The position numbers and the translations under genes are program-made. Positions 40,531-62,562 of a DNA stretch of 64,000 nucleotides are shown one piece after another. Origin of the DNA: Phlyctochytrium arcticum (Eukaryota; Chytridiomycota; Chytridiomycetes; Chytridiales; Chytridiaceae); the NCBI GenBank assembly GCA_025602905.1, contig JAHLKI010000008.1:496001-560000 (forward strand). The letters are read 5' to 3'. The notes beneath the pieces were generated by a model. The model was given only the letters and a program-made list of their open reading frames with translations. It searched no databases and was not told where the DNA came from. How positions within the stretch are numbered: the first letter of the stretch is position 1; each line of letters opens with the position of its first letter.

Positions 40531-42246
40531 CTACAGGGTTTCAGAGGACGACTGGTACTTGTCGGCCATCTGCCGTTGATGGTTTCGAAGATGGGAGTGA
40601 CGGTATCCGTAGACAACGTAGACGATGGTACCAAGGGCCATCCAGATAAAGACTCGGGCAATGGAGGCGGGGGTGATTTGGGTCAGGAGGAAGATGACAC
40701 AGGCGGCGGCGAGAGTGGGAATGACAAAGCCGCCGATGCGGCCGCCGGGGACAGAGAAGCCACGGGGGCGGTCGGGGTCGGTGATCTTGAGGATGATGGT
40801 GGAGAGGGAAACAAAGAGGAAGGCGAGGAGGGTGCCGACGGAAGTCAAATTTCCGAGAATGTCGACGGGGAGGATACCCGCAAAGAGGGCGCAGATGACG
40901 CCGGTGGTGATGGTGGTGATGTAGGGGGTGTGGAAGCGGGGGTGGAGACGGGAAAAGGTTTTGGGGAGGAGACCGTCCTTGGCCATGGCGTGGAAGATAC
41001 GGGGTTGACCAAGCAACATGGTGAGAATGACGGATGTGAGACCAGCTACTGCGCCGATGGAGACAATGATGGTGAACCAGCGGAGATTGACGCCCTGGTT
41101 AGCGGCAGCCCAGAGGATGTTGGATGCGACGGGTGCTTTGGATTCAATGTCGTGGAAGGGGCGGAGACCGACCATGACGGCCGAGACGGCAATGTAGAGG
41201 ATGGTGCAGACCGAGAGGGAGCCAATGATGCCGACAGGTAGGTCCTTTTGAGGGTTCTTTGCTTCCTGGGCGGTGGTGGAAACGGCATCGAAACCAATGT
41301 AGGCGAAAAAGACGGTAACGGCACCGGCAAAGACACCTTCGACACCGTACTTTTTGGGGCCTTCGTTGGGGGGAATGAAGGGAGAGTAGTTGGCGGGTTG
41401 GATGAATTTGATGCCGGCAAAGATGAACATGAGGGTAATGACGACTTTGACGACGACGAAAAAGTTGTTGACGCGGGTAGATTCCTTGACTCCTACGACC
41501 AAGATGGCGGTGACAGCGAGGACAATGGCAATGGCGGGGAGGTTGATGATGGGTTCACACCATTCGGTGCCGCCGGGGCCACAGGGGACGGCGTTGCGGA
41601 CAAAGGCAGCGGAAGTGACTTTTTGGCCGCGGTGCTCGTGGCCGACTTCGACCCACTTGAAGGGGGCATTGACGATGCGGGGGTTGGTGGTGTCGTGGTT
41701 GCCAGTAATGTCATCGATGAGTTGGACGAGGTACGAGGACCAGCCGACGGCGACGGTAGCAGCTCCAACCATGTACTCGAGCATAAGATCCCAGCCGACA
41801 ATCCAGGCGAGGAACTCTCCCATGGCGACGTAGGTAAAGGAGTAAGCGGAACCGGAAGCAGGGATCATGGAGGCGAGTTCAGCGTAGCACATGGAGGCCA
41901 AACCACAGACGAAACCGGCAATGAGAAAGGAGATGACGAGGGCAGGACCGGCGTGGTCGCGGGCAGCAGTTCCGGTGAGGACAAAGATACCGGCTCCGAT
42001 GATGGCACCGATTCCGAGAAACATGAGATCCAGTCCAGAGAGGGTTCGCTTGAATTCGACCTGGGCGATTTCGTCCTCCATCATGGCGACAGATTTGGTG
42101 CCAAAGATGCGGCGACCAAAGGCATTGCCCATGACTGCGCGATGCACAGGGCCGAATGGATGTGGCCGTGTCCTGTACTGTGGATGTGTCGGAGTCGTCG
42201 TCGTCGTAGTCACTGGACTCGAATCATATTTGGTTTTTCCGTCCAT
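40531..42246 (-). CDS. APC-superfamily amino-acid permease (CAT/YfnA type), copy 1
   Basis: A plasma-membrane amino-acid transporter of the cationic-amino-acid-transporter/YfnA branch of the APC superfamily. A single exon of 571 aa; about 12 TM helices. Seen: LMFLGIGAIIGAGIFVLTG (TM1 with the family's GAIIGAGIF substrate motif), GFVCGLASMCYAELASMIPA, YTFVYVAMGE-like TM3, FFAYIGFDAVSTTAQEAKNP (TM6/7 signature) and LTSVILTMLLGQPRIFHAMA. The Thr/Pro-rich N-terminus before GPVHRAVMGN is poorly conserved between the two copies, so the first ATG (42246) is likely but not proven. It has no introns, unlike nearly all neighbours, and is strongly GC-rich at third positions; long antisense frames (40576-41241, 41248-42306) result from this. 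The nearly identical inverted paralogue is at 60853-62562. Confidence 0.93.
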   Translation of the reverse strand: MDGKTKYDSSPVTTTTTTPTHPQYRTRPHPFGPVHRAVMGNAFGRRIFGTKSVAMMEDEIAQVEFKRTLSGLDLMFLGIGAIIGAGIFVLTGTAARDHAGPALVISFLIAGFVCGLASMCYAELASMIPASGSAYSFTYVAMGEFLAWIVGWDLMLEYMVGAATVAVGWSSYLVQLIDDITGNHDTTNPRIVNAPFKWVEVGHEHRGQKVTSAAFVRNAVPCGPGGTEWCEPIINLPAIAIVLAVTAILVVGVKESTRVNNFFVVVKVVITLMFIFAGIKFIQPANYSPFIPPNEGPKKYGVEGVFAGAVTVFFAYIGFDAVSTTAQEAKNPQKDLPVGIIGSLSVCTILYIAVSAVMVGLRPFHDIESKAPVASNILWAAANQGVNLRWFTIIVSIGAVAGLTSVILTMLLGQPRIFHAMAKDGLLPKTFSRLHPRFHTPYITTITTGVICALFAGILPVDILGNLTSVGTLLAFLFVSLSTIILKITDPDRPRGFSVPGGRIGGFVIPTLAAACVIFLLTQITPASIARVFIWMALGTIVYVVYGYRHSHLRNHQRQMADKYQSSSETL

Positions 42247-43714
42247 CTTGCTTGTCCTTTTGCTACTGGCCGTGATGTGTGTGATGAGGCTTTTTTCCCA
42301 GTGTAGTGTTTAAAGGCGGCAAGTATTAGATCCTGCAAGTTTTTCAAAGGGTGAGTATACATTCTATGGGTAGAAAATCGAACGAACGAACCTTGCGTCG
42401 AGAAATGGAAATATCGAAGGAGAAGTGTTCCAAAGGTCCGCCGTCTTAAGTAGGGCAGCAGCGGGAGACACATTCGATTCGCGCGTCCTACATTCCACGC
42501 GTGTGTTACCGATCATTCGAATGGCGGAAAAGAAACAGGCTCCGAACAGCTCAAAAATAGTGAGAAATTTTTGCTGTTTCGTCGCATGGCATTCTTCCCT
42601 ATTTACTCTTTTCCATGCATCGTCCACAGTACTAGATCTAGATACTCTTCCTTCGTCAAACATATTACTTGTAATTGCATCTATTCCTTGAACTTGATCC
42701 TTGAACTTATTCTGGGTGGTCAATTTCAATACCAAGATCAGGTGAATGAGCCTCTCTTACAAGCACTGCATATAAAAGGTGGCTCTTGGCCCTGCCCGAA
42801 GCAACAAAAACATCTGGCCCTAGATCTACTTTAGCAGAGTGGCCCCAGCAGTGGCCCCGGCAGCTGATTTTGTTGCTGATCAAGGCTGGGTGGGGATCGT
42901 TGGCTGGGATCTGGGCTGCTGGGCTGGGGCCAAGTCATCATTAAAAGGTCAACGAGACAAGGAGCTGCTGAAACTGCATGCAAAATTTATCGCTAGACCC
43001 ATTTAATTTGGTTTCAATTCCACGGCGATGAAACACATACTGGTTTATCATGGTCAGGAACAACATTTACTCGAGTAACCTTTTTGAGTTTTGGTGGATG
43101 AGTGTGTGGGGGCCAGATGGGGGGCAGACAGTGATTGATCTTTTGAAAAAGACGCAAAAGGCTGGCGACCCCAAAAGATAATCGGGCACCGCCGCGCCGT
43201 TGGTTGTCCATTGTCCAAGCAGGAAAAGGGAAAATCCCGTCTGTCACAGATCACACTCTCTTCGTTCCCGCCTTCTTTCTCTACTCCTTGTCCTTCTTGT
43301 CTTTCGCTGATGAGAGTTATTATTTACTCAAAGTCCCTCTCGCGAGACTCGTAGTAGAACAATGGGATGATACGTACCAGTTAACAACCCCACATCACAG
43401 GCCCAAAACAAAAAACAGCAAGCGCAGGTGGCTGGGACCGTTGTTTGGCCCCCACCGCGTCGCCGGCCAAAGATCATTGATTCTTTTTGTCTCCCAAGTC
43501 GTATCTCGCTGGGCGGCTGCGCCGTGGTTCAGAATGCGTTCTCGGCAGCTTCTCGCCTATGTTTTCCCAAACTTTGGAAAGATTATGCTTATGGACATGA
43601 TTGCTTTGACAGGATATTTATGAAAGGTTCAAAGGAGTGCACAGAGAAAACAGTGCTCATTGCCGACATGGAATGGACACTACTGTATTTGTGATTCAAG
43701 TTTCGCTGTTTTTA
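42247..43714. other. Intergenic region upstream of permease copy 1
   Basis: About 1.5 kb with no gene seen. It contains a G-rich block (about 42838-42945) with repeated TGGCCCC/GGCTGGG motifs, and probably the permease promoter. Short open frames at 43204-43694 are not supported. Confidence 0.45.
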
Positions 43715-47975: not shown

Positions 47976-48068
47976 CTGGGTTAATTAGCGCGATGTCGGT
48001 AACACGTGTCCGAATGTCCAGTTTCTGGTCAAATTCCTGGCTTATATTTCACTCCCGGACAAAGAAAC

Positions 48069-48096
48069 AATTAATTCCGCGTCAGCGGAATTAATT
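48069..48096. repeat. Perfect 12-bp inverted repeat (hairpin)
   Basis: AATTAATTCCGC at 48069-48080, loop GTCA, and GCGGAATTAATT at 48085-48096 form a perfect 12-bp stem. Confidence 0.85.
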
Positions 48097-48111
48097 AATT
48101 CGAACAGGATA

Positions 48112-48151
48112 TATTGGCGCGAGCGTCAATCTGAGCGTCAATGCGCCAATA
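48112..48151. repeat. 9-bp inverted repeat enclosing a direct repeat
   Basis: TATTGGCGC (48112-48120) and GCGCCAATA (48143-48151) are perfect inverted copies. The 22-nt loop holds GAGCGTCAAT twice (48121-48130 and 48133-48142). Confidence 0.85.
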
Positions 48152-48183
48152 AATATGCATGAGTGTATCAAGTCAAGAAATCT

Positions 48184-48188
48184 ATAAT
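48184..48188. repeat. Target-site duplication (left), ATAAT
   Basis: ATAAT directly before the left LTR is repeated at 53307-53311 directly after the right LTR: a 5-bp duplication typical of copia integrases. Confidence 0.9.
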
Positions 48189-48363
48189 TGTTGTAAAGTG
48201 AACTCAATGTATACTATCAAAGACTGGAGAGTTGGTGCGGGGTGAGCCAACGACCACATTATATACAAGGCATTACACATCATGGAAGCTACGCGTCGGA
48301 GTTATAGAAGACCTTGCTGAGGTAACAGACGCGTGCTGACAACTGGAAAGCTGAGTCACAACA
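48189..48363 (-). repeat. 3' LTR of the copia element
   Basis: 175 bp, identical to 53132-53306, with a minus-strand TATATAATG stretch at 48265-48257 that could serve as a TATA box. Confidence 0.95.
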
Positions 48364-48372
48364 CTCCCCCTC
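48364..48372 (-). other. Polypurine tract
   Basis: Minus-strand GAGGGGGAG abuts the 3' LTR directly, as expected for the plus-strand primer site of an LTR element. Confidence 0.85.
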
Positions 48373-48450
48373 AAAGGCTGAACTGTAGTTCAGTAGTTGC
48401 AAGACTCAGATGAGTTGTTGTAGTATGCCGTGTACTCCCCCTGAACCGAA

Positions 48451-51400
48451 TCAGGCTGTGTTGTCTAGAGTCCGGTGACTGCGCAGTCCGAGTTTGGGGA
48501 GGAGGTGCCAATGGGTGGTAGGGCCGAGTGCCTTGGTCAGTATATCGGCTACATTGTCGACTGATGCGATCTTGGTGACTTCAATGTCCACGTGGTTGAT
48601 TTCGTGTGCGTAGAAATATTTTGGGTCTATGTGGCGGGTTCGCGAGCAGTTTGTGTATCCTTTTTCGATTTGGCTAATGCAAGCGGCGTTGTCCCCGTAT
48701 AAGATAGTTGGTTCATCGAATATTGTGGTAATGCGAGCAGTCTTAGTGGTAATGAATTTCAGAGCTCGACGAAGGGCGACGGCCTCTCTGGCTGCTTCGT
48801 ACATCGCGATCAGTTCCGAGTGATTTGTCGATGTCGTTACCATGGTTTGCTTGCTTGATTTCCAGCTGATTGCGGTTCCCCCGAACAGGTATACATATCC
48901 GGTCTGAGACTTGCCGGTGTGGGGATCCGATTGGTACCCGGCGTCGGTGTAGCCGGTCAGCATCTGGTTTGATTTGCGTGGGAAAAATAAGCCAAAATCG
49001 GTTGTTCCTTTCAGATATTTCATGATGCGCTTGACGCCGACCCAATGTCGTTCAGTAGGGTCTTTTGTGTATCGAGCCAAGAGGTTTACCGCGAAAGCAA
49101 TATCAGGTCGAGTTTGGTTTGCTAGATACATCAGGGCTCCGACTGCTGAGGAGTATGGGACTGCAGCGTTTAACGGTGCTTCTGTTGCTTCTCTTGGACG
49201 GAAGATGTCTTTGTCGTGGGTTAAGCTGCGTACTTCCATTGGTGTATTTGATGGATTTGCCGCGTCCATTGAAAAACGTTTCAAAAGCTGTGTGATATAA
49301 CCCGTTTGGTGTAAGAAAATGCCAGGGCCTTCGGGGCTGGTTGAGATATGTTCGATCTGTAAGCCTAAACAGTAAGTGGTCTGACCGAGATCTTTCATTT
49401 CAAACTCATTTGCAAGGCTTCTACGTGTGTCAGAGATAGCACTTTCTGTGCCGATGATATTTAGATCATCTACGTAAACTGCAACTACGGCGACTTCGGG
49501 TCCCGCTCTCTTTATGAATATGCAGGGGCAGCGGGCCTCCGTCTCGAAACCTTTGTCGAGTAGAAAACGGTTCAATCTTTGGTACCACAGCATGCCGGAC
49601 TGTTTGAAGCCATACAGGGCTTGGTTCACCCTAACGGAGGGATTTTCGAATTGTGCCATTTGTTGTGCAGTGTCCGTTCCATACAGATTTTCTGGGACTC
49701 GCATGTAAAGTTCCTTGTCCATTTTTCCATATAGGAATGCGGTGACTACATCCATCAGGTGCATCATCAATTTCTCACTAGCAGCAAATCCGAGAAGGAA
49801 ACGGAAGAATACTGCGTCGAGAACTGGAGCATATGTTTCCGTAAAATCAATGCCGTAGCGTTGAGCGTATCCTTTGGCTACGACTCTTGCTTTGTGTCGT
49901 ACAACTTCACCGTCTGCATTGCGTTTGAGGTGTAATACTACTCGACATCCTACTGGGTCGAATCCGTCGGGGGTTTCCTGAATAGGACCGAGGACGTTTC
50001 TTTTCAAAATTGAATCGTATTCGGCGCGTATAGCGTCGTGCCATTTGGGCCAGTCCGATCGTGTACGTGCTTCTTTAATCGATTGTGGGTCTGTGTCCAA
50101 GTCTTTGTCAAAAATAAGGGCGGTACTGGAGTTGATAGCTGCCGCGATGTGATTAACCATTGTTTCGGTAATTTCCACTCTCGGATCGTCCGTGATGCGG
50201 TTTTCTGGTGGTGTAAACGTTTTACGGGGATATTTGTTTTTCGAGCCAATTGGTCGTCCACGTTTTCTGCGTGGTTCGGTGATGACTGCCGGAGGTAGTT
50301 CTGTGGAGATGCGGTCCGGAGCGTTTATGGCAGCCGATGTTAAAGATTCTGGGTGACGGATGACTGTCGCGCTGTTGTTGAATGTGTCTGGAGCGTTATT
50401 CACGATTCTTTGCAGGTTGATAATCTCCGCAATTGTCTTTTCGGTCATTGAAGAAATAGAATATTCCGTAGGTCTTGTAGGGGATGAGGAGAACAGGACC
50501 TCTCGTTCTTTGCGTTGATCCTCCGTGAGGTACTCCTTGTTTCCTACGGTGGGAAATTGTGTTTCGTCAAAGATACAATCGGCAAAACGGGCGTGGAAAA
50601 CCGAGCCGGATGTAGGTTCCAGATATCGTATTTTACAAGTGCTGTCATAACCGATGTAAATTCCAAGTGTACGTTGCGCTCCCATCTTGTTTCTTTTGGG
50701 TGGTGGGATTGGGACGTAAACCGCGCTTCCAAAAACACGAAGATGGTCGACGCTTGGTGGGTGTCCATTGAGCAGCTGGTGGGGACTTTCCTTCATATAA
50801 GAGGAGGGCCGGTAATTTAGGACGTTGACCGCATGTAAAACGGCATGACCCCATGCGGATGCTGGTAGTCTTGATCCCAGAAGCATTGCCCGAGCCGTAG
50901 TGGACACTCTTTTAATCAGTGCTTCAGCACTTCCGTTCTGTTGATGTACATATTCTGTGCAGGTCTCTAGTTCCGTGCCGCATGAAGCCAAGTATGCTTT
51001 CATCAGTGGTGATGTAAGTTCTCCCGCATTGTCGACCCGGATCTTTTTGATTTTGTACTCTGGGTAAAAATTTCGGAGTTTGATGAAATGGCGTAGGGCA
51101 TTGGGGAAGGCGTCGTCCTTGTTTTCTAGTAGGGCGACATATGCCAATCGGGATGAGGAATCTCCAATAACCATAAAGTACTCAAATTGGCCCGACGGAG
51201 GATATACTGGGCCATGGATATCAATATTCAATCGACTTAGGAATGGAGGGGCCTCAGTGGGTTCCTTAAAGCTGGCGGGTGCAGATGAGAATTTGGCCAG
51301 TGCGCATGGTCGACATGGTGAGTTTAATGATAAACCTTTGTTGAATTGTCGCCTGGAGAGGTTCATATTTCGTACTATGTTCAGGATACGGCCGAACATG

Positions 51401-53049
51401 GTCTTTCCCGGATGTCCGAAGCGAGCATGCCAGAGGTTATACATTGCGGATTGGTTGTCGATCGTAAGGTCTTTGGACGGTGATGAAACATTCTCATTTT
51501 GAGTTTGCGCGTAATAGATGTGAGATTGTTTATTGACAGCATTTACAGTTGTAGTGTATAGGCCGTTCTCGAGACCTTTCAATGTTTCTACAATTTCCCC
51601 TTTCCGCAATAGATGCATGTACATCTTCCCCCCGTCATCCTTGGTTTGAATAGATAACTTGTTCTGGTGTAAGACCTTGAAACTAACCAGTAATCTGGGA
51701 GATTGAGGGGCATAGAGAGCGTCGTTGATTTCCAAGATTGTTCCGTTAGGTAGTTGAAGTCTGGCGTGTCCTGATCCTTCGGCCAGAGAAGATCCCGAGA
51801 TGGTCTTTAGGGTAATTTCTTTGTCGTTGTTGAGGGTGATAAGCATTTCCCGGTGAGGGATGATGCAGTGGGTTGTCCCGCTGTCGATGAGCGCCTGGTT
51901 GCCGGTGTACTCGTCGTCTGTGTGGGTGGAGTTAATTTCCGCATGAATTTTGGAGCGGGTAGGAATGTTATCGTTTGAGGCGTCCATGAAATTGCTGTAG
52001 ACAAGTTCGGGCACCGGCATGGGAGCGGGGGTGGTTATTTCGACCGAATGGGCTTCCTTGATTTCTGGTTTACCGTATTGTTTGTATAGTTGTCGAAGAT
52101 GCGGAGCGGTTCGGCATTCCTTCCCGCGGTGTCCCTGTATCCCGCATTCAAAACAAGTAACTTGGGGGCGATTCTGTCCGCGACCGCGGCCGCGACCACG
52201 ACCACGACCACGACCACGTCCTCGCCAGTGTCCTTGGCCGTGACCGCCTGTGGGGTCGAAACGTTGCGTATAGTGCGACTCGCCATAAACCGGCTGATGA
52301 CCGTGGTCATTGTTGGGGTATTGGTAGAATTGTCCGTTCGAGTGGGGTGTCATGTTTGTGTCGTAACGGTCAATATAGTGTGATTCCACTTCAGCGGGAC
52401 TTGCGCCGAGCGAAGGCATCGCAGTTCCCGGGGGGCGTACGTCGGCGTTGGTGATTAGAATGTTTTCTCGCTCTTCGGTTGTTTGCATGGTCGCGAGTAA
52501 GGCAGAATATGTCGGGAATTTCAAATTTTGGTACAGGGAGGATAATACCACCAAATGTTTGGGAAAAGTGGAGAGTGTCTTTTGGATTAGGTTGGCATCG
52601 GTTATCATCTCCATCTTTCCGCAGAGGCGAAGGCGGTTGACGATGCCCATAAGGGCACAGTTGTATGCGTGGACGGATTTGAAGTCTTGAAAACGCAGGT
52701 TGTTGAAATCGTGCATAGCACGCGGTTCCAGGATAATCTTTTGGTTGAAGAATCTCGCTGATAATTGTTGCCAGAGTTCAGTCGGATCCTTGGTTGCACT
52801 GTATTGTTCTTGTAGATCGGGACTGAGGTGTCGTTTGATAAACAAAAGACCTTGAGCGCGCTCTCTCAATTTGGTGATGCGGCTTTCGGTGTCTTCTTCA
52901 GATGTTGTGACGGTATCGGGATCGATAATGGGTACTAAAGCGTGCTCCAAGCCGATCGCAAATAAATGATCTTGAGTGTTTTGGGACCATGCGATGTAGT
53001 TGCGACCGTCCGCGAATAACTGTTCGAATTTTGTAGCCTGGATGGTCAT
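48451..53049 (-). CDS. Copia gag-pol polyprotein
   Basis: A 1532-aa single frame. Seen in order: gag (UBN2-like, residues ~1-220), an RG dipeptide run (~270-290), zinc knuckle CFECGIQGHRGKEC (~300), aspartic protease core DSGTTHCIIP (~388), GAG-pre-integrase (LWHARFGHPG, then CRPCALAKF), integrase core starting DIHGPV (~608) with a second Asp in VDNAGE and the family's downstream Glu region, reverse transcriptase with the YVDD box (~1190), and RNase H (TGYTDAGYQSD, ~1368; SWKSSKQ). The order protease-integrase-RT-RNase H defines Ty1/copia. Gag and pol are in one frame without a frameshift signal, so the Gag:Pol ratio must be set another way (splicing, readthrough or degradation). All catalytic motifs are intact, so the element may be active. 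Confidence 0.97.
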   Translation of the reverse strand: MTIQATKFEQLFADGRNYIAWSQNTQDHLFAIGLEHALVPIIDPDTVTTSEEDTESRITKLRERAQGLLFIKRHLSPDLQEQYSATKDPTELWQQLSARFFNQKIILEPRAMHDFNNLRFQDFKSVHAYNCALMGIVNRLRLCGKMEMITDANLIQKTLSTFPKHLVVLSSLYQNLKFPTYSALLATMQTTEERENILITNADVRPPGTAMPSLGASPAEVESHYIDRYDTNMTPHSNGQFYQYPNNDHGHQPVYGESHYTQRFDPTGGHGQGHWRGRGRGRGRGRGRGRGQNRPQVTCFECGIQGHRGKECRTAPHLRQLYKQYGKPEIKEAHSVEITTPAPMPVPELVYSNFMDASNDNIPTRSKIHAEINSTHTDDEYTGNQALIDSGTTHCIIPHREMLITLNNDKEITLKTISGSSLAEGSGHARLQLPNGTILEINDALYAPQSPRLLVSFKVLHQNKLSIQTKDDGGKMYMHLLRKGEIVETLKGLENGLYTTTVNAVNKQSHIYYAQTQNENVSSPSKDLTIDNQSAMYNLWHARFGHPGKTMFGRILNIVRNMNLSRRQFNKGLSLNSPCRPCALAKFSSAPASFKEPTEAPPFLSRLNIDIHGPVYPPSGQFEYFMVIGDSSSRLAYVALLENKDDAFPNALRHFIKLRNFYPEYKIKKIRVDNAGELTSPLMKAYLASCGTELETCTEYVHQQNGSAEALIKRVSTTARAMLLGSRLPASAWGHAVLHAVNVLNYRPSSYMKESPHQLLNGHPPSVDHLRVFGSAVYVPIPPPKRNKMGAQRTLGIYIGYDSTCKIRYLEPTSGSVFHARFADCIFDETQFPTVGNKEYLTEDQRKEREVLFSSSPTRPTEYSISSMTEKTIAEIINLQRIVNNAPDTFNNSATVIRHPESLTSAAINAPDRISTELPPAVITEPRRKRGRPIGSKNKYPRKTFTPPENRITDDPRVEITETMVNHIAAAINSSTALIFDKDLDTDPQSIKEARTRSDWPKWHDAIRAEYDSILKRNVLGPIQETPDGFDPVGCRVVLHLKRNADGEVVRHKARVVAKGYAQRYGIDFTETYAPVLDAVFFRFLLGFAASEKLMMHLMDVVTAFLYGKMDKELYMRVPENLYGTDTAQQMAQFENPSVRVNQALYGFKQSGMLWYQRLNRFLLDKGFETEARCPCIFIKRAGPEVAVVAVYVDDLNIIGTESAISDTRRSLANEFEMKDLGQTTYCLGLQIEHISTSPEGPGIFLHQTGYITQLLKRFSMDAANPSNTPMEVRSLTHDKDIFRPREATEAPLNAAVPYSSAVGALMYLANQTRPDIAFAVNLLARYTKDPTERHWVGVKRIMKYLKGTTDFGLFFPRKSNQMLTGYTDAGYQSDPHTGKSQTGYVYLFGGTAISWKSSKQTMVTTSTNHSELIAMYEAAREAVALRRALKFITTKTARITTIFDEPTILYGDNAACISQIEKGYTNCSRTRHIDPKYFYAHEINHVDIEVTKIASVDNVADILTKALGPTTHWHLLPKLGLRSHRTLDNTA

Positions 53050-53111
53050 GGCTGATGCTCATTTTTTTGATTTTTTTTTTTTTTTTTTGAAATGGTAGTT
53101 CGAGTTGGTTA

Positions 53112-53131
53112 GAGCTTGGTGTCTGATAACG
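53112..53131 (-). other. Probable primer-binding site
   Basis: Directly inside the 5' LTR the minus strand reads CGTTATCAGACACC. TATCAGA resembles the TGGTATCAGAG primer site complementary to initiator methionine tRNA in many copia elements. Partial match only. Confidence 0.45.
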
Positions 53132-53306
53132 TGTTGTAAAGTGAACTCAATGTATACTATCAAAGACTGGAGAGTTGGTGCGGGGTGAGCCAACGACCAC
53201 ATTATATACAAGGCATTACACATCATGGAAGCTACGCGTCGGAGTTATAGAAGACCTTGCTGAGGTAACAGACGCGTGCTGACAACTGGAAAGCTGAGTC
53301 ACAACA
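53132..53306 (-). repeat. 5' LTR of the copia element
   Basis: 175 bp, TGTTG...CAACA, identical to 48189-48363. Confidence 0.95.
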
Positions 53307-53311
53307 ATAAT
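53307..53311. repeat. Target-site duplication (right), ATAAT
   Basis: Partner of 48184-48188. Confidence 0.9.
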
Positions 53312-53403
53312 GTAATAAATGATATTTGAAGGAAAAAATGCGTCTTTATATGACGACTTGATGGTTGCTAATAGTAATGTATAAATCCGTTATCCACGAG
53401 TCG

Positions 53404-56400
53404 TCATCCTTCACACTTTTCCACTTTCCACCGCCCAGGACATGTTGTGGACTGGCAGCTACGACAGTTGCGGATCTTTGATTTCGTCAATCGCCCCGAA
53501 GCACCCACAGTAACAGTGTCCGGTCCAACCCCTGTACACAAAGCACGATTGCCACTACCTGGACATATTCCGTTGCAGATACGACATAATCTCCTCTGCC
53601 TTTTTGCTCGGGGCTTTGATGACTCGTCCATTGTCGCATCCAAGGGGGCATTGGTCGGTAAGATGGGAGGAATAGCATTGATAGGTCTGGGCGTCTGAGT
53701 AGCGGGCGTTATTTGCGGAGCGATCATCAAATGGAGACTATCCGTCGATTGTGGAGCGGAGATTGCTTGGGAAGAGGTGATAGCAGTTGGAGCTGTTGAT
53801 TGAGTGTCGGGAAGGTCGGGAGTTGGTTCGGGGTCGGGAGTTGGATCGGGATCAGGAGTTGGTTCGGGATCGTGAGTTGGTTCGGGGTCGGGCATTGGTT
53901 CGGGGTCGGGCATTAGTTGGGGAGCGGGGATTGGTAGGGGGAGACGCGTCGGATCTGCGGGAATGTTAATGAACGGTAGGTCAGAAACGTTTGCGGTGGG
54001 TAAGTTGCGGATGGTTCGGTTGGGGTCTCGCAAAAGCCGATCCACTTCTTCCCGCTGCTCCGCGCTGGACAATGCAGTGGCCGCTTCAATCCGGTACTGC
54101 ACCCAGTTTTTGAAGTGGGCTTCCAAATACACACCGATCTTATAAAAGATTGTTACTCCATTTGCCTCTCGGTTCCATTGGGTGCTCATTTTCGTCCACT
54201 GAGCGGTCGAGAATCCAGTTTTAGCCAACGCACGTCGGGAGAGAATTTCTGCCCACTCCCGTTCCTTGAGGAATTCAAAGAACTGCCTCTTTTCCTCTCT
54301 AGTGCTAATGGGAATAATTGCGAAACGAGAGTTTTGCAGGCGGGCCACTTCAGATCGACGGAAAGAGTTTGACTCTGGCTCACGGAAAGGTTCTATCTGG
54401 TGAACTTCAGCCATCTCTGTTCCTAGCGGACAAATGAGGAAGGTTTCTTGACTTGGCTTGTAGTAGTTTGGATTACACCAATTGTCAAGAAGTGGTGGCA
54501 AGGGCGATTTCAGAACATGTTCCAACTCCAGGTAAAGAGAATGTATCGAATCAATCAGCCACAGGTCGTAGTGCCACTTCCATGGCTTGCCCGATCTGTT
54601 CAAAGTTCCCACCTGAAAGCGTCGCGTTTAGTGTGGTAAAGAGATTGGTAGAGGTGGACCCCCCAATGAGAGACTTGCATTCTGATTGTGTCTACAAACG
54701 TATTCTGCCATTAGGCTATGCGTAAATGGCACACTTGCCCGATATGCGGAGAACCGTGCAATCATTTTCTGATGAACCCCGCCTTCCAAAAGGTTCGTCC
54801 CTCGGATGCACCTATACTTTGTCAGACGAAACTTGTCAATTTTCATTTTGTAATATAGTGGTACGTCAACGGGGTCGGAGACATGACCAAGGAAGATTTC
54901 ACGGATGACAAGCTTCGCCTTCTTCCATGCCTCCATGTTGAACAATGGCTTTTTCAGCTTTTCGCAGAGAATGGGACCGTAGGCCAAGAAAACCTTCCTA
55001 ACTAGTGGGAGTAGTACTTCCGGCTTTGGAATGTACCGCCGGACGCGTTTCCAGACCCAGGCAGGTTTTTGGATCAGAACCTGTTCCCACGTTTGATTCC
55101 GTGGTTCGAGATAAACTCTTATCATATGACGCTTGTCATCTTCGTCAACCACAAACATTGCATCCCTCAAAGCTCGAACGAATCTCGTTAAAATTCCGTG
55201 CCGTCTGGGAATGACTATCCTTTTCATCAAATGGAAGAGATCCATGAGCACTCTTGTTGGGAGTGTGGATTGTTCAGAAGCAGTCTCCATCCCGCTCAGC
55301 ATCTGGGTGGCAGCTTCTAGAATAGTTGCGTCAAGAACGGCGTCTTCCAACGGATTGCCTTCATCGTGGTGCTCATCTGTTTCCGACTGCTCGTCCCCCA
55401 TAAGTTGGTCGGACAACTTCGTCATCTCCGAAACATTTTCCGCTGACGCATCTTCAAGGCTATCTTCAACGAAAGAAGACGGCTGGCTGTCGGCATTCAC
55501 GGTTATGGTAGCGCTCGGGTCCGGTATGTTTGTTGGAGGGACGATCTCAATGGGGCGGGACGCAGCGACTCGTAGTTGTGTAGTCGGTACAACAATACGT
55601 GATGGCAGGTCAAGGTCACCATAGGCAATTTCTAAAAGGACGAGACGTACTTCAATGTCGCGCGCTAACATTAATTGCAGACGGCTCATGCTTACCTTTA
55701 CTTTGGGGTATGAAGGCAGCTGGAACGAAAATTTGATGGATCTCGACAGCCTGGCGGGTCTTGGTTAGGTTTACTCCATGTAATCTTGTGACATCGGCAG
55801 GTCCCACGATTCCAGTTGCGATGACCATCTTCTTGTTGTCCTTGGCCACAATATCAACAGCTAGGCCCGGACGAAGCTGCTGCGCATTTAAGTTGGGCAA
55901 ATTCACCACGTTGGTATAGATCATTAGACTGGCATACGCGTCATTCGCGGCGTACGTTAGTTGCTGTTCGGACAGTTGCTCATTGTCCCAATCCTCACTT
56001 ATTCGAATGGAATCTGGCTTGGGGAGTCTTTGACGCAGAACCGTTGCGCAAAGTACGTCTAGGCCGACCCTTCCATCCGAAACTACATTCAAACGTTTAC
56101 AAAAGGCACCAAGTTCCAACGTTCCACGGTTTACAGGCAAGCCATAGTCCCTTTCCAGTTTTGCCAAGTCAGTACCGAGATTTTTGCCTACTTTGATGAC
56201 ACGCGCTTCCGCAATCAATCGCTTCATGCTTGAGGGGATCGTTCCGATACGAGAGAGGTGAACAATCAAGACAACTTCACTGGTCGCAATTTGTATGGTG
56301 GCGACTTTACCCTGTACACCTGTACGGGGATCATATGACCACTCGCAGTCGAATCCAACCGCGATCGTCTCTGCACCTGTTCCTGCACCTGTTTCTGCAC

Positions 56401-58590
56401 CTGTCTCGTCCCCTGTCTCTTCACCTGTCTCTTCACCTGTCTCTTCACCTGTCTCTTCACCTGTCTCTTCACCTGTCTCTTCACCTGTCTCTTCACCTGT
56501 CTCTTCACCTGTCTCTTCACCTGTCTCTTCACCTGTCTCTTCACCTGTCTCTTCACCTGTCTCTTCACCTGTCTCTTCACCTGTCTCTTCACCCCCGGCG
56601 TTCAGGTTTCGCAAGACCCATACATTGAGCATAAAATCGCAGGCAGTCGAGGTAGTGATCAGAAATTGCTCCACGTTTGGAGGACGTGAAAACTCAGGAA
56701 GATTGGCAAATTCATCGATAATAGTCGCCCTGACATCTTGAGTTAAGGATGGAATGGCCTTTTCGAAATACCCTCGTTCTCCTATTGATCAATCCAGCGA
56801 TTAGAAAATGCATGATGGGCAGAAAGAGAAGCACAAAGAACTTTACCCGGCACGTCGTCAACAAATAAGAGTTGTGGTTGCTTATGACCGAACTGCTTCA
56901 ACGAATTCAACATCCCTTTGATCGGCTGATCTATTTCCCTCAGGCTTTTCGTGAATGTGAGCGTGTGCCCGCGGATCTCTCCAAATTGATTACCAAAAGA
57001 GTGGACGGCCGTATACACAGGGCACCCGTCAACGCGTGCAACACGTTTCGGAAGTTTGTGACTGAAATCGCTGGAAAGAATGTCCGCTGGGAGCATAGCA
57101 ATCTGTTGATCACGTCGTTTCTGGAACCGCCTTTGCGCCGTATTGTAGACAGCTAACAGGTAGTTCGAAAGAGGAAGCTTCTCTTCATACTCTTTAACAA
57201 ACTCCGGGAAAGGGGGGAAGATTGTCTGAGCGTCAAAGGGCGGCGGGTAGGTAACTCGATGACGAACTTCTTCCAAATAGGCCAACCGTCGAATATCGTA
57301 CTGCTTAGTATGGAGTTCTCGGAGGAGGTTGGCTGTAGGCGACGGCCCTGTTCTGTGGTGGAAAAGGGGCCGCATCTGATTCATCAACAGCGACGAGATA
57401 CCCATTCGTTGGGTGAGGACGGCTGGAAAGGACATGCGCGAGCTTTCGGGCAATTGGTCAAGAATGAATGGAGCATGCCCGACGAAACTTTTCCCACATC
57501 CAGACTTTTTCCCGCGCTTGTCGCAGCGGTAGCGTCGCGAAAGCAGGTACCACGTTCGATCTAGATCCACTACTCTCCGAAAGTCGTCATTCCATCCCTT
57601 CGTAGTCAGTTCGTGGCCGCAATGACATCTTAAGTTGGCGTACAGGTGCGGCACATGTATGTAGACATCTGGATAAGCCAGCTCCATAGGGTCCAAATGA
57701 TGCTGGCCCCGGAAGATGTTTTGAACTGCTGGACGGCGGATCCAACAATCGCGTTGCGTGATGAAGTCAGGATAGGATCCTCCGTTTTTGTTCAGCTTCT
57801 CCATTTCGTCATTCAAGTTCTTTTTCACAGACGTGAGAAAAGCCAAATGGCAATTCTCACGCTTATCTGGCACTGTAGTCTCATCATCCCCCAGTTCTTC
57901 TTCTTGTATCTCCGGCTCTTCAGGGCTATCTACTAGATGGATGGGAAGGCGTTAAGCACTGCCTGGTACAATCCATCAGTTTGAGAGCTCACCTATCATA
58001 TCCGGCTGAATCGTCCGCGCACCCCCGTCCAACATTTCCCCCACAACATCAGTAGTCAATTCTGCAGGCTTGATAGTCTCCGCAGAGCTTTCCGTAGCCG
58101 GTTGCATTTGTTCTGGGTCTTGTGGTTGTTCATCAGTCGACTGCGTGAAGGGCTGAGCTGCGGGTTCTTGCTCGGCGCTGCGGGAGGGGCTACTTGGCGA
58201 TGCAGGCTCTATGAATGGAAAGGAAACATGAGAACCCGTGCATTGGCTTGAGACAGTCTGGATGATGTCTTTTTCCAATATTGTACCATTGCTATTATGA
58301 GCTCCTTGATTAGTATCATCAGCTCCTTCTTGTACAGCAGGCTTAGCAGCCGCGTTCCCACGCGCTGTAAAGATCGGAAATAATGATGTATTCGCACTTT
58401 TGGAGACGGACATGCTCCCCCCTTGCATTTCATTGTTTAGATTACTAGCACTGGCATGAAGAATAGCGTTCGTTTCAGGCTCGGATGTTTGGGCACGTCT
58501 ACCCCCTCGGTTTCTGATTGTCCAAGGTCTTCCTGCGCGATGATTGGACTTGTTCTTGGAGCCCTTGGGACGGCCTCGTTTGGCAGTCAT
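53404..58590 (-). CDS. Large DDE transposase-like protein with nested DEDD 3'-5' exonuclease
   Basis: Five exons fit with perfect phases: 58590-57993, 57929-56847, 56781-55696, 55631-54679, 54612-53404, giving 1642 aa. Seen: AT-hook KRGRPKGSKNK (residues 4-14); disordered acidic region; Cys/His region (RDCWIRRP, LRCHCGHELTTKGW, RRVVDLDRTWYLLSRRYRC, GCGKSF, ~258-348), resembling the DUF6729 type; a transposase-like front half with ILSSDFSHK (Asp ~487), VDGCPVYTAV and LLFVDDVPG (Asp ~557); a (TGEE)~16 spacer; a complete DEDD exonuclease (FDCEW ~705, VGKNLGTDL ~763, YAANDAY ~840); a back half with LMDLFHLMKRI (~1053), RGTNLLEGGVHQ (Glu ~1205) and VGTLNRSGKPWKWHYDLWLI; a PDPEPT repeat; and a C-terminal Cys cluster (CRICNGICPG, CRSCQSTTCPG). 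The DDE reading is inference from spacing and partial recall of related fungal/animal ORFs. The exonuclease is certain. The fourth intron needs a GC donor (AAT|GCAAGT). The frame is intact. Confidence 0.82.
53814..53930 (-). repeat. 18-bp-type tandem repeat encoding PDPEPT/PDPEPM
   Basis: Units of GGTTCGGGGTCGGG(A/C)(A/G)TT with small changes. The repeat lies in exon 5 of the transposase-like gene and makes an acidic Pro-rich linker between the catalytic part and the C-terminal Cys cluster. Confidence 0.85.
56403..56592 (-). repeat. 12-bp minisatellite encoding (TGEE)n
   Basis: About 16 units of TCTTCACCTGTC (plus strand). The central ~10 units are identical as read, with variants (TGDE, TGAE, TGAG) at the exonuclease-side edge. 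As 12 is a multiple of 3, the coding frame tolerates changes in copy number. The unit has no stop on either strand in the overlapping frames, which creates long false ORFs. Confidence 0.95.
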
Positions 58591-58780
58591 GATTATAGCT
58601 ACGCGGACAAGATTTGGACACTAGGTTATGCAATCAGATATAGGCTATGAACTCAGGAAGGAGAAGGTGTTCAGTTCAGTACATAGCAGTACAGCCTGAT
58701 TTATTTTTATTTTTTATTTGTATTTGGGCACTGTTTGTTCAGCTGTTTGTTTGTCCGAAAAGTCCGAAACCTGACTCAGA

Positions 58781-58868
58781 CCTATCAATTAGACTTAAGG
58801 CCTGCTGCGCAAAACCTATCAATTAGACTTAAGGAAAAATGAGTCAGACCTAACAATTAGACTTAAGC
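58781..58868. repeat. Three phased 20-bp motifs at exact 34-bp spacing
   Basis: CCTATCAATTAGACTTAAGG at 58781-58800 and 58815-58834, and CCTAACAATTAGACTTAAGC at 58849-58868. The 14-bp spacers are unrelated in sequence, so the motif and its spacing are what is conserved. It lies 190 bp upstream of the ATG of the transposase-like gene. TGACTCAGA and TGAGTCAGA precede the first and third copies. They could be binding sites for the encoded protein (subterminal repeats) or a promoter element. Confidence 0.85.
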
Positions 58869-60852
58869 TGGTCCGCCACTCGCGCAATTGCCAAATTCCT
58901 GTCATCGCTCCACACCTTCTCCCAACTCTGCCGGTATATTTCAGTGTCGGATGATCTTTCACACCATATGCTGGCATCAAGTTGATACATATATCGTTAC
59001 TTGCCATAACATGTACTCGAGATAGTGTATTAACATAGTACAACGGATGCTGTGGAGGATGGACTTACGAATATGTCAAGCGAAGAAGCGAACTTGATCT
59101 GAATTGATTGATGTTGATACAGTACGGGTGCGCAAAGTAACTCGTGAGATCCGCACCGGTTTTCGAGATCAAAGTCGTTTCCGACATACTTGTTCCAACA
59201 TGATCCGAAATGTCACTCTTTCATCGTAAGAGACGGGCAGGAGACGGGGCTGCAGGGGCCATTGTCAGTCCATGCATAAAACTAGTAGAAGTACGCAGGT
59301 AACTTATACCAGAGATGAGTTGCACTTTTCATGATCAAAATATGTGCAAACAATCATGTCAAGTTGACATGCCTATGAGTGTATCAATAACGGTATGATA
59401 TAAATCACTCGATCGAGCAGCTGAATTTTCACGACCTCTCACGGAAATTGGCTGAATGGACGGGTGGATCTGAGCGCCCATACATGTACACAGCCCATGA
59501 AACCCAAATCCTCCTGAGTGTGCCTGGAAATTGGCAACTCAACAAGTTCGAGCCCCAGATCACAAGATGTGCCCTGGTAAATCGCATGATGATTCGCATC
59601 CAAGATCATAACATGGTCAAAGTTGACAGGAATGTCTTTTCCTTTGCCAGCAGCAAATACACTCGTATCGAACCTATATCCCTCGCACGAAGTATCACTC
59701 ATGTATCAAGGTTTTATAACTTTGGCTCAGACATTTCGTGTTACGGCCCAAATTATCAGAACAACATGAACCCTAGCTTGGAGCCACAAATATAAAGCTC
59801 GAGAAGTTGGAACTTGGAACAAATCAATTGGAAACTTGGAAGCCGAAGGTGGAAGAAAGAATGTGTCGCCGGAGTCGCTGCAATCCTTCTTTTTCCGAGC
59901 TTCCAAGATTCCAAGACTTACCGCGTCGGAGTTTTCGAACTGCTGCGCGAAGCATCAAGTCAATCCGACTCAATCGAGAACGCCCCCAAAGTCCAATCAC
60001 GGCGAATTTAAACTTTCCGTCCACCCTCCGCCCGCTCCGCCCTTGCTTCGTGACCGAAATCGAGGTTGCGTTTGTGGCAGCAGCGCTGGCGATTTTTTCG
60101 TGGGCTGTCGAGTCTACAAGCAAGTGCTGGAGCTGGACGGTGCGGCAGCGTTTGCCGAGAGCCAAAAGTAGCACACCGTTGCACTCTCTGATTCGTTTGA
60201 CATGCAGCTTTCCTCGCCAGAATCAGTGGTGATTTTGGCGAGTGAATTTTGGTTGAGCGTAGATTTACAACCTTGACGCGTTGCTCCGGAACAAGATGTG
60301 ATTGTGCGGCTACGGGCCCACTCTCTGAGCTTGCGATTGCGGATTATCAAACCCCGGGAAGTGATTATCATGAGTGCATGCCCAGCTGGGTCGATAAACC
60401 ACTGTTGGGCGGAAGTGGACAACGCGAAGGAGAAGAGTGGATTGGATGCGCCCCTGCGGAAAAGGTCCGCTGCCCTCATCCAGCCCTGATCATCCACACC
60501 TTGGCCGACAAAGTGTCAGGCCGGACGGCGGTTCTCGTACCTCCTACCAGTCGTCGTACATTGGCATGGCACTCCGATTTTGACCACCTCTCAGGTACCA
60601 CAGCTGCAATCAATCCTTAATTCTCTGTGCGTAGGTACAATGGCTTGGTATAAAGGCATGCCAACGATGCCTCTCCCTCATCGCATTGCTGCTGGCTGCC
60701 CGACCTCTGTCAAGTTCCTTAGCCAAGATCTCGAGCATATCAAAACCTCATAGTACCCCCCAATCGACGCGTGAGAAACACCGCCCAACGGAAACACCTA
60801 TCGGCTTACCCGTATCCTGCAAGTGCAACTTCCAAGTATTAGACGATCAGAA
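58869..60852. other. Intergenic region upstream of permease copy 2
   Basis: About 2 kb without a supportable gene. A near-perfect palindrome, CATGTCAA-G-TTGACATG, lies at 59355-59371. ORFs at 59448-59795 and 59807-60232 have no features. The last ~250 bp should hold the permease promoter. Confidence 0.45.
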
Positions 60853-62562
60853 ATGGGAATTTTGGGAGGAACAAAGCATGTCACTACCCCGGCCGTGGTG
60901 ACCCATTCGACCCACCACCACCAGACAAGGTCGCATCCATTCGGCCCTGTACATCGCGCAGTCATGGGCAACAAGTTTGGCCGCCGCATCTTTGGCACCA
61001 AATCCGTCGCCATGATGGAGGCCGAGATTGCCCAGGTCGGATTCAAGCGAACTCTGTCCGGCGTCGATCTCATGTTTCTTGGAATTGGTGCCATCATTGG
61101 AGCCGGTATCTTTGTACTTACTGGAACTGCTGCCAGAAACCACGCTGGTCCTGCCCTGGTCATCTCCTTCCTCATTGCCGGCTTCGTCTGTGGTCTTGCC
61201 TCTATGTGCTACGCTGAACTCGCCTCCATGATCCCAGCTTCCGGTTCCGCTTACTCCTTCACCTACGTCGCCATGGGAGAGTTCCTCGCCTGGATTGTCG
61301 GCTGGGATCTTATGCTCGAGTACATGGTTGGAGCTGCTACCGTCGCGGTCGGCTGGTCATCGTACGTTGTCCAACTCATTGATGACATTACCGGCAATCA
61401 CGACACCACCAACCCCCATATCGTCAATGCGCCCTTCCGATGGGTTGAAGTCGGTCAGGAACACCGTGGTCAAACAGTGACATCCGCCGCCTTTGTCCGT
61501 AACGCCGTTCCTTGTGGTCCCGGCGGCACCGATTGGTGTGAGCCCATCATCAACCTTCCCGCCATCGCCATTGTCATTGCTGTTACCGCCATCCTTGTCT
61601 TTGGTATCAAAGAGTCCAGTCGCATCAACAACTTTTTTGTCGTCGTCAAGGTTGTCATTACCCTCATGTTCATCTTTGCTGGAATCAAATTCATCAATCC
61701 CGCCAACTACACTCCCTTCATCCCCCCACAGAAGGCCGCTAAGCAGTACGGTGTCGAAGGTATCTTTGCTGGTGCCGTCACCGTCTTCTTTGCCTACATT
61801 GGTTTCGATGCCGTCTCCACTACCGCACAGGAAGCCAAGAACCCGCAAAAGGATCTGCCATTTGGAATTATTGGCTCTCTCTCTGTCTGCACCATCCTCT
61901 ACATTGCCGTCTCGGCCGTCATGGTTGGTTTGCGTCCTTACTACGACATTTCCGAAAAGGCACCGGTCGCATCCAACCTGCTGTGGGCTGCTGCTAACCA
62001 GGGGACAAACCTGCGCTGGTTCACCATCATTATCTCCATTGGCGCCGTAGCTGGTCTCACGTCCGTCATTCTCACCATGTTACTTGGTCAACCGCGTATC
62101 TTCCACGCCATGGCCAAGGATGGTCTCCTCCCCAAAACCTTTTCCCGCCTCCATCCCCGCTTCCAAACCCCCTACATTACCACCATCACCACTGGGACCA
62201 TCTGCGCCCTCTTTGCCGGTATCCTCCCTGTTGACATTCTCGGCAACCTGACCTCTGTCGGCACCCTGATTGCCTTCCTATTCGTCTCCCTCTCTACGAT
62301 CGTCCTCAAGATCACTGACCCGACCCGTCCTCGTGGCTTTTCCGTCCCCGGAGGACGCATTGGCGGATTCGTTATTCCAAGCTTGTCAGCTGCCTCTGTT
62401 ATTTTCCTCCTGACCCAAATTACACCGGCGTCGATCGCCCGAGTCTTTATCTGGATGGCCATCGGTGCTGTCGTCTACGCCGTCTACGGATACCGAAAGT
62501 CTCATTTGGGGAAACACAACGCTGGTCTACGTGCACATGGACACTCTGCATCGACCTTTTAG
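60853..62562 (+). CDS. APC-superfamily amino-acid permease (CAT/YfnA type), copy 2
   Basis: A single exon, 569 aa, from MGILGGTKHVTT. From GPVHRAVMGN onward it is nearly identical to copy 1 (40531-42246) with mostly conservative changes (for example VVV/VIV, PPNEGPKK against PPQKAAKQ in a loop). The N-terminal ~35 residues and the last ~15 differ freely. All TM signatures of copy 1 are present (GAIIGAGIFVLTG, FFAYIGFDAVSTTAQEAKNP). It is the second arm of an inverted gene pair around the mobile-DNA island. Likely a plasma-membrane amino-acid importer; the substrate is not known. Confidence 0.93.
   Translation: MGILGGTKHVTTPAVVTHSTHHHQTRSHPFGPVHRAVMGNKFGRRIFGTKSVAMMEAEIAQVGFKRTLSGVDLMFLGIGAIIGAGIFVLTGTAARNHAGPALVISFLIAGFVCGLASMCYAELASMIPASGSAYSFTYVAMGEFLAWIVGWDLMLEYMVGAATVAVGWSSYVVQLIDDITGNHDTTNPHIVNAPFRWVEVGQEHRGQTVTSAAFVRNAVPCGPGGTDWCEPIINLPAIAIVIAVTAILVFGIKESSRINNFFVVVKVVITLMFIFAGIKFINPANYTPFIPPQKAAKQYGVEGIFAGAVTVFFAYIGFDAVSTTAQEAKNPQKDLPFGIIGSLSVCTILYIAVSAVMVGLRPYYDISEKAPVASNLLWAAANQGTNLRWFTIIISIGAVAGLTSVILTMLLGQPRIFHAMAKDGLLPKTFSRLHPRFQTPYITTITTGTICALFAGILPVDILGNLTSVGTLIAFLFVSLSTIVLKITDPTRPRGFSVPGGRIGGFVIPSLSAASVIFLLTQITPASIARVFIWMAIGAVVYAVYGYRKSHLGKHNAGLRAHGHSASTF

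Follow-up and report, generated by a model that had tools for sequence, protein, structure and literature searches.

A probable Dada-type transposon of Phlyctochytrium arcticum with a 3'-5' exonuclease nested in its predicted DDE transposase

The stretch of DNA analysed here (the window) comprises 64,000 nucleotides of the chytrid Phlyctochytrium arcticum (assembly GCA_025602905.1, contig JAHLKI010000008.1, positions 496,001 to 560,000 of the forward strand). Its minus strand carries a five-exon gene at 53404-58590 that is predicted to encode a DDE-type transposase interrupted by a 3'-5' exonuclease. Exon 1 (57993-58590) holds the start codon, a low-complexity region and the sequence RGRPKG, which we take to be an AT-hook-like motif. 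Exon 2 (56847-57932) encodes the Cys domain DUF6729 (PF20499, Pfam E 8.6e-18), which is of the CCCC type, and two putative catalytic aspartates, D488 (D1, 57067-57069) and D558 (D2, 56857-56859). Exon 3 (55702-56781) contains the stretch following D2, an EETG repeat, a DEDDy exonuclease (PF01612, DNA_pol_A_exo1, E 1e-17, match at 55910-56362) and then a segment with no assigned fold. Exon 4 (54700-55649), for which no Pfam match was obtained, encodes a linker, a DxxH motif (D1058/H1061) and the putative catalytic glutamate E1210 (E, 54784-54786), while exon 5 (53404-54612) encodes the C-terminal region, with two Cys clusters, and the stop codon.

In silico splicing joined these exons in phase into an open frame of 1,640 amino acids (aa) without internal stop, and three alternative splice sites likewise left the frame open. 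Intron 4 probably belongs to the GC-AG class (GCAAGT...TTTCAG), which would place the end of exon 4 at 54679 and give a predicted protein of 1,647 aa. This reading is preferred because the resulting protein matches the sequence of a diatom relative at this point: with GCAAGT as donor it reads MAEYVCRHNQNVGTLNRSGKPWKWHYDLWLIDSI (CRHNQN...YDLWLIDSIHS), against RHRHNHN...CDTWLVDLYQNL in the diatom. The unbroken five-exon protein of about 1,642 aa proposed in the first-pass annotation is thus upheld as to its frame and amended at intron 4. Intron 2 apparently lies at the same place in a diverged copy of the gene, L023. The EETG repeat is a 12-bp minisatellite of 14 perfect units (56422-56589), located in the linker directly before the exonuclease, and alignments of the window copy to its sister copies break up there.

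Along the protein the order is AT-hook, DUF6729 Cys domain, D, D, complete DEDDy exonuclease, DxxH, E and Cys cluster. The DDE-type motifs are DFSHK (D488), FVDD (D558, 70 residues further on), DLFH (D1058-x-x-H1061) and RGTNLLEG (E1210); all motifs that had been quoted for this protein from the DNA alone were found in it. The exonuclease has its full set of residues (D706, E708, D766, Y838 and D842), and its closest sequences in the PDB are the WRN exonuclease (E 1.2e-16) and EXD2 (E 1.4e-15). The N-terminal cysteines, at 302, 304, 336 and 345 (C-x1-C-x31-C-x8-C), precede the first D. The C-terminal clusters, placed where Dada transposases have a CCHC finger, contain Cys without His, and the related copy L019 has CPACGHIKFAFPEFHQGQHHRC there.

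The window protein itself, used as query in a first database search, returned nothing. Alignment queries then gave the relatives, and a second search scored 8,000 candidates sharing most words; the relatives total at least 10. Among the matches listed, six of ten relatives include D1 and continue into the exonuclease (P0002, P0003 and P0005-P0008, of which P0003 covers the exonuclease start only), four include the exonuclease and the stretch up to DxxH (P0006-P0009), and one runs from D1 through E. The last is P0007, a 1,585-aa protein of the diatom Thalassiosira exigua, which has the whole order through E plus the C-terminal Cys cluster. P0006 (from Mucor saturninus), P0008 and P0009 contain the exonuclease and DxxH and end or diverge before E. 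Coverage is partial in others: P0001 stops after D2, P0009 starts after D1, and P0004 and P0010 match only at the N-terminus, before D1. Two diverged copies in the P. arcticum genome have intron-free open reading frames (ORFs), one spanning D1, D2 and the exonuclease (L019, 4206-5354) and the other the exonuclease and DxxH (L052, 1519-2889), so that the nesting holds whether or not the introns were correctly inferred. Where covered, the DEDDy residues are all kept in P0002, P0005-P0009, L019, L023 and L052. A DEDD exonuclease set into a DDE-type transposase after the second Asp and before the Glu, as first proposed for the window gene, therefore recurs in related sequences. No relative was found in viral contigs, and an exonuclease tree did not separate a single domain capture from several.

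The mobile unit is larger than the gene. Whereas the first-pass annotation placed the feature at 53404-58590, where the gene does lie, alignment of copies, the ends and a target duplication define a minus-strand element at 48039-58892, broken by a nested retrotransposon (10,854 bp with it, about 5.7 kb without). It is bounded by a target site duplication of exactly 8 bp, AAATTCCT, present identically at 48031-48038 and 58893-58900 and abutting both ends. The left terminal inverted repeat, GGCTTATATTTCACTCCCGGACAA, occupies 48039-48062, where similarity to the copies C44, C29 and C11 begins; the right one, GGCAATTGCGCGAGTGGCGGACCA read inward, occupies 58869-58892, is an exact pattern match, and marks where the similarity of C44 and C11 stops. 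Both ends begin with GGC, and the 24-bp repeat finishes with GGACCA or a close variant of it: GGACAA at the left end in the window, AGACCA at the left end of C31. The two ends match at 12 of 24 positions in the window element, 14 each in C44, C29, C11 and C31, and 16 in C27; per 20,000 shuffles, matches as good arose 54 times for the window, twice each for C44, C29, C11 and C31, and three times for C27. Three 34-bp subterminal direct repeats with the core ACCTATCAATTAGACTTAAG (58766-58867, plus strand) are putative transposase binding sites. In C29, the left end (L015, 6659-6851) contains a stable single-stranded DNA hairpin (AATTAATTCCGC...GCGGAATTAATT, z-score -3.1), the second arm of which is missing in the C44 copy.

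The nested element is a minus-strand Copia long terminal repeat (LTR) retrotransposon at 48189-53306, between the transposase stop codon and the left end of the host element and thus outside the transposase gene. It has 175-bp LTRs that are 100% identical, a 5-bp duplication (ATAAT) and an RVT_2 match (E 3.4e-52). The insertion is young, and it is absent from the sister copies C44, C29 and C11. The Copia element has an open gag-pol frame of 1,535 aa, and its polyprotein carries RKRGRPIGSKNK, which resembles the RGRPKGSKNK AT-hook of the surrounding element's protein.

Further copies and paired ends, which the first-pass annotation had suggested looking for, were found in the genome (31.5 Mb, 91 contigs). 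DUF6729 matched 13 times, and four of these matches lie within near-identical open exons of 389 aa (C44, C29, C11 and C8, the window copy). Similarity to the sister copies covers 48039-58892 except for the Copia element at 48189-53306. Leaving gaps aside, the window copy differs in coding sequence by 15 changes from C44, 27 from C29 and 17 from C11, too few per domain for a conclusion on selection; the C11 copy has two stops. Three more close copies, C3, C80 and C55, are decayed. Between C3 and C80 there is no difference across the element body compared, and the two may be a single copy assembled twice. Compared stretch by stretch, more distant matches have 35-57% (C3:1338362 and C61, with the same figures as each other) or 26-31% (C2:1222987 and C3:1269820) identity to the window protein. 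Deletion derivatives that retain only both ends of the protein occur in C27 and in C2 near 672 kb; that of C27 measures 1,789 bp, has matching ends and is flanked by a separate 8-bp duplication, TTTTTTTC. The copy family is thus that of a recent, full-length and recently active transposon.

Six insertions have both ends defined (window, C27, C44, C31, C29 and C11). Two of them, the window element and C27, are directly bordered on both sides by an 8-bp duplication. In C44 (TGTATTACT) and C31 (GAATTTGCG) a 9-bp repeat abuts the left end and is displaced from the right end, by 15 and 6 extra bases respectively; the window element and C27 have none. At C29 the site is repetitive and ambiguous, and the duplication could be either the abutting 6 bp AAATTC or a more distant 8-mer. 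A direct match of at least 8 between 25-base flanks was present in five of the six true pairs, in none of 30 mismatched pairs and in 0.5% of 3,000 random pairs. At C11 (L016) the right-flank 8-mer is the reverse complement of the left-flank 8-mer; this weighs little, because an inverted 8-mer was also seen in one of the 30 mismatched pairs and in 0.8% of the random pairs. Unpaired ends were also found by pattern, two right (C5:937653 and C29:220818) and three left (C1:906211, C5:652882 and C1:704908).

On either side of the element, the window contains two closely similar genes in opposite orientation (40531-42309, minus strand, and 60775-62562, plus strand), which we presume to be amino-acid-permease-like.

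Considered together, the open spliced frame, the domains, the recurring D-D-exonuclease-DxxH-E order, the ends, the 8-bp duplication, the near-identical copies and the C27 derivative argue strongly that the element is an autonomous Dada-type transposon of the kind that carries an exonuclease, mobilised by cut-and-paste and active in the recent past. Very probably it encodes a single transposase of about 1,647 aa with a DDE core interrupted by the exonuclease. Dada transposases have been described as DDE transposases with a DxxH motif, an N-terminal CCCC and a C-terminal CCHC finger (Kojima & Jurka 2013, PMC3706591). In the window protein, DxxH lies at motif level between the second D and E, as in Dada, and it is kept in the relatives where covered. 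The Dada-type N-terminal CCCC is also present before the first D, and its spacing in the Mucor relative (C-x4-C-x33-C-x2-C) is closer than that of the window protein to Dada-U6_DR (C-x4-C-x34-C-x2-C, with a D-D distance of 68; PMC3706591).

From the motifs and their order, we infer that the region of D488, D558 and E1210 forms a DDE core split by the exonuclease and packed as one RNase H fold. This assignment rests on motif order, D-D distance, DxxH and E, plus weak profile matches. The best Pfam match was to MULE (PF10551), at E 0.005 with the excised piece of the Mucor protein and 0.14 with the whole protein. The RNaseH-like domain of ZSWIM1-3 matched below threshold in the diatom protein (E 0.017) and, as a joined piece, in P0008 (E 0.16). 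The profile search with the two DDE halves thus gave sub-threshold matches in relatives, but none over the cut-off and none for the window piece. Neither half had a credible counterpart by sequence among solved structures: the first drew two matches, at E 0.59 and 0.66, and the second none.

As for the mechanism, binding of the element ends (GGC...GGACCA) and of the three subterminal 34-bp repeats would fall to the AT-hook and the CCCC zinc-like domain. Excision of the element and its joining to the target, with a stagger of 8 bp, would be the work of the DDE site, and once cleavage has exposed 3' ends, the exonuclease would trim them. Kojima & Jurka proposed that the exonuclease of Dada processes cleaved 3' ends (PMC3706591), and this is probably its role during transposition here too. 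At C44 and C31, the presence of extra bases on one side only is consistent with imprecise right-end processing, but secondary events there are possible and the cases number just two. A more tentative proposal, which we regard as possible but doubtful, is that the exonuclease branch differs from the targeted Dada elements in having inverted ends, untargeted 8-bp insertion and an exact left end, with a slack right end that the exonuclease trims to leave 0 to about 15 extra bases.

Several results weigh against the assignment to Dada or the DDE fold. The DDE piece of the window protein itself matched neither MULE nor ZSWIM1-3 in Pfam. The top PF10551 score was 17.7 bits, from one relative only, against a cut-off of 27.6; no DDE profile reached its cut-off, and the same lists also included unrelated families, at E 0.067-0.27. 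When the two DDE halves were joined without the exonuclease, Pfam scores fell below those of the first halves alone. An hhalign comparison with one MULE copy was no better than with a reversed copy. The family is tied to Dada by the published description, and none of the database hits bears the name Dada. Dada families with defined ends are reported to have 6-7-bp duplications, no terminal inverted repeats and insertion into small nuclear RNA (snRNA) or tRNA genes (PMC3706591), whereas the window element has 24-bp imperfect inverted ends, the family has 8-bp duplications (at two of the six insertions), and no RNA-gene target was detected. Small-RNA-gene targeting was not seen at the flanks scanned, although unrecognised RNAs are possible: the window, L014-L016 and L040-L042 yielded neither a tRNA nor an Rfam match reaching the gathering score, and no tRNA was found when the empty sites of five insertions (all of the six but C31) were rejoined. 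A scan for truncated RNAs covered four of the 12 flanks, two from the window and one each from C29 and C11, and gave one sub-threshold match, to SECIS_3 (E 0.59). Finally, C11 has no direct target duplication within 25-base flanks, and the 7- or 8-mers flanking the left ends at C5:652882 and C1:906211 were not repeated in the approximately 3 kb read.

Four other explanations were weighed. The first bears on the trimming role only: the exonuclease could be a structural insertion or DNA-binding platform instead of an active enzyme. The Hermes DDE transposase does carry a large inserted all-alpha domain (PMC3985635), but the window copy retains the full set of DEDDy residues, as do the relatives where covered, and we consider a platform rather unlikely. 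Still less likely is a superfamily separate from Dada and MULE, though akin to both, that also bears an exonuclease. It would account for the inverted ends, the 8-bp duplications and the lack of RNA-gene targeting, by which the element differs from published Dada, and for the weak MULE/ZSWIM similarity of the Mucor, diatom and P0008 relatives. However, the family agrees with the published description of Dada in where the exonuclease sits, in DxxH, in the N-terminal Cys spacing (that of the Mucor relative) and in the C-terminal Cys cluster; moreover, the names of the fungal Dada-1_LB and Dada-2_LB carry no RNA target, and the relevant passage names none for the exonuclease-bearing Dada of Laccaria and Ectocarpus (PMC3706591). 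That two or more separate genes were joined by in silico mis-splicing was rejected as highly improbable: the four introns were deduced from the DNA, but the intron-free ORFs of L019 and L052 cross both junctions flanking the exonuclease, P0007, P0006 and P0008 are single predicted proteins, and the position of intron 2 is apparently shared with L023. A domesticated host nuclease that has lost mobility, the alternative offered in the first-pass annotation, is scarcely credible and was rejected: the intact 1,640-aa frame with every catalytic motif would suit it, but there are four near-identical dispersed copies, alongside decayed copies and deletion derivatives, with inverted ends and target duplications.

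A WRN-like exonuclease inside the catalytic domain of a transposase makes an unusual enzyme, to which the 2013 report devotes a short passage. The exonuclease-bearing Dada-type element of P. arcticum, with recent full-length copies, defined ends, target duplications and deletion derivatives, offers a practical substrate for tests of the exonuclease's role. If it does belong to Dada, Pfam DUF6729 becomes tied to Dada-type transposases, and eukaryotic proteins with this domain now labelled "hypothetical" or "3'-5' exonuclease" could be annotated as mobile elements. No mention of DUF6729 by name was found in the literature searched. The literature search on Dada with exonuclease, fungi and Agaricomycetes turned up no title dealing with the ends of exonuclease-bearing Dada elements; Repbase lay outside it, and the ends are not claimed to be unpublished.

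Among known systems, KDZ transposons were an early candidate, and the literature pointed to Kolobok and Dada instead. KolobokD, with a DEDDh/TREX-like exonuclease, and KolobokE, with a lambda-exonuclease-like one (Kojima & Bao 2022, PMC9587614), resemble the window element as DDE transposons with C/DxxH plus an exonuclease. They differ in exonuclease family and in that their exonucleases are described as accessory proteins and their duplications are TTAA (PMC9587614), whereas those of the window element and C27 are AAATTCCT and TTTTTTTC. MULE/MuDR (PF10551) shares C/DxxH, and the Mucor relative has weak D1-D2 profile similarity to it, but the Pfam model includes no exonuclease and the window sequence does not match it. 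Mutator-like elements are abundant in the same genome, with at least 151 PF10551 matches.

Within Dada, the Dada-U6, Dada-U1 and Dada-tRNA elements of fish, Daphnia and Perkinsus have the same superfamily motifs, and their duplications are sometimes missing or replaced (PMC3706591, PMC8869645); a 2022 fish paper states that Dada transposition may not always produce duplications (PMC8869645). They differ in targeting snRNA, tRNA or 5S genes, and the parts of the text cited here report no exonuclease for them. The closest likeness is to Dada-1_LB and Dada-2_LB of Laccaria bicolor and Dada-1_ES of Ectocarpus siliculosus, in which an exonuclease lies between the second D and DxxH (PMC3706591). In common with these, the window element has a DDE-type core with DxxH, a nested DEDDy exonuclease, N- and C-terminal Cys clusters and introns, the last being reported for all Dada elements except those of Perkinsus (PMC3706591). 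The layout, which the first-pass annotation had taken to be undescribed, was therefore published in 2013, and the P. arcticum element is a new example of this kind of transposon and not a new kind.

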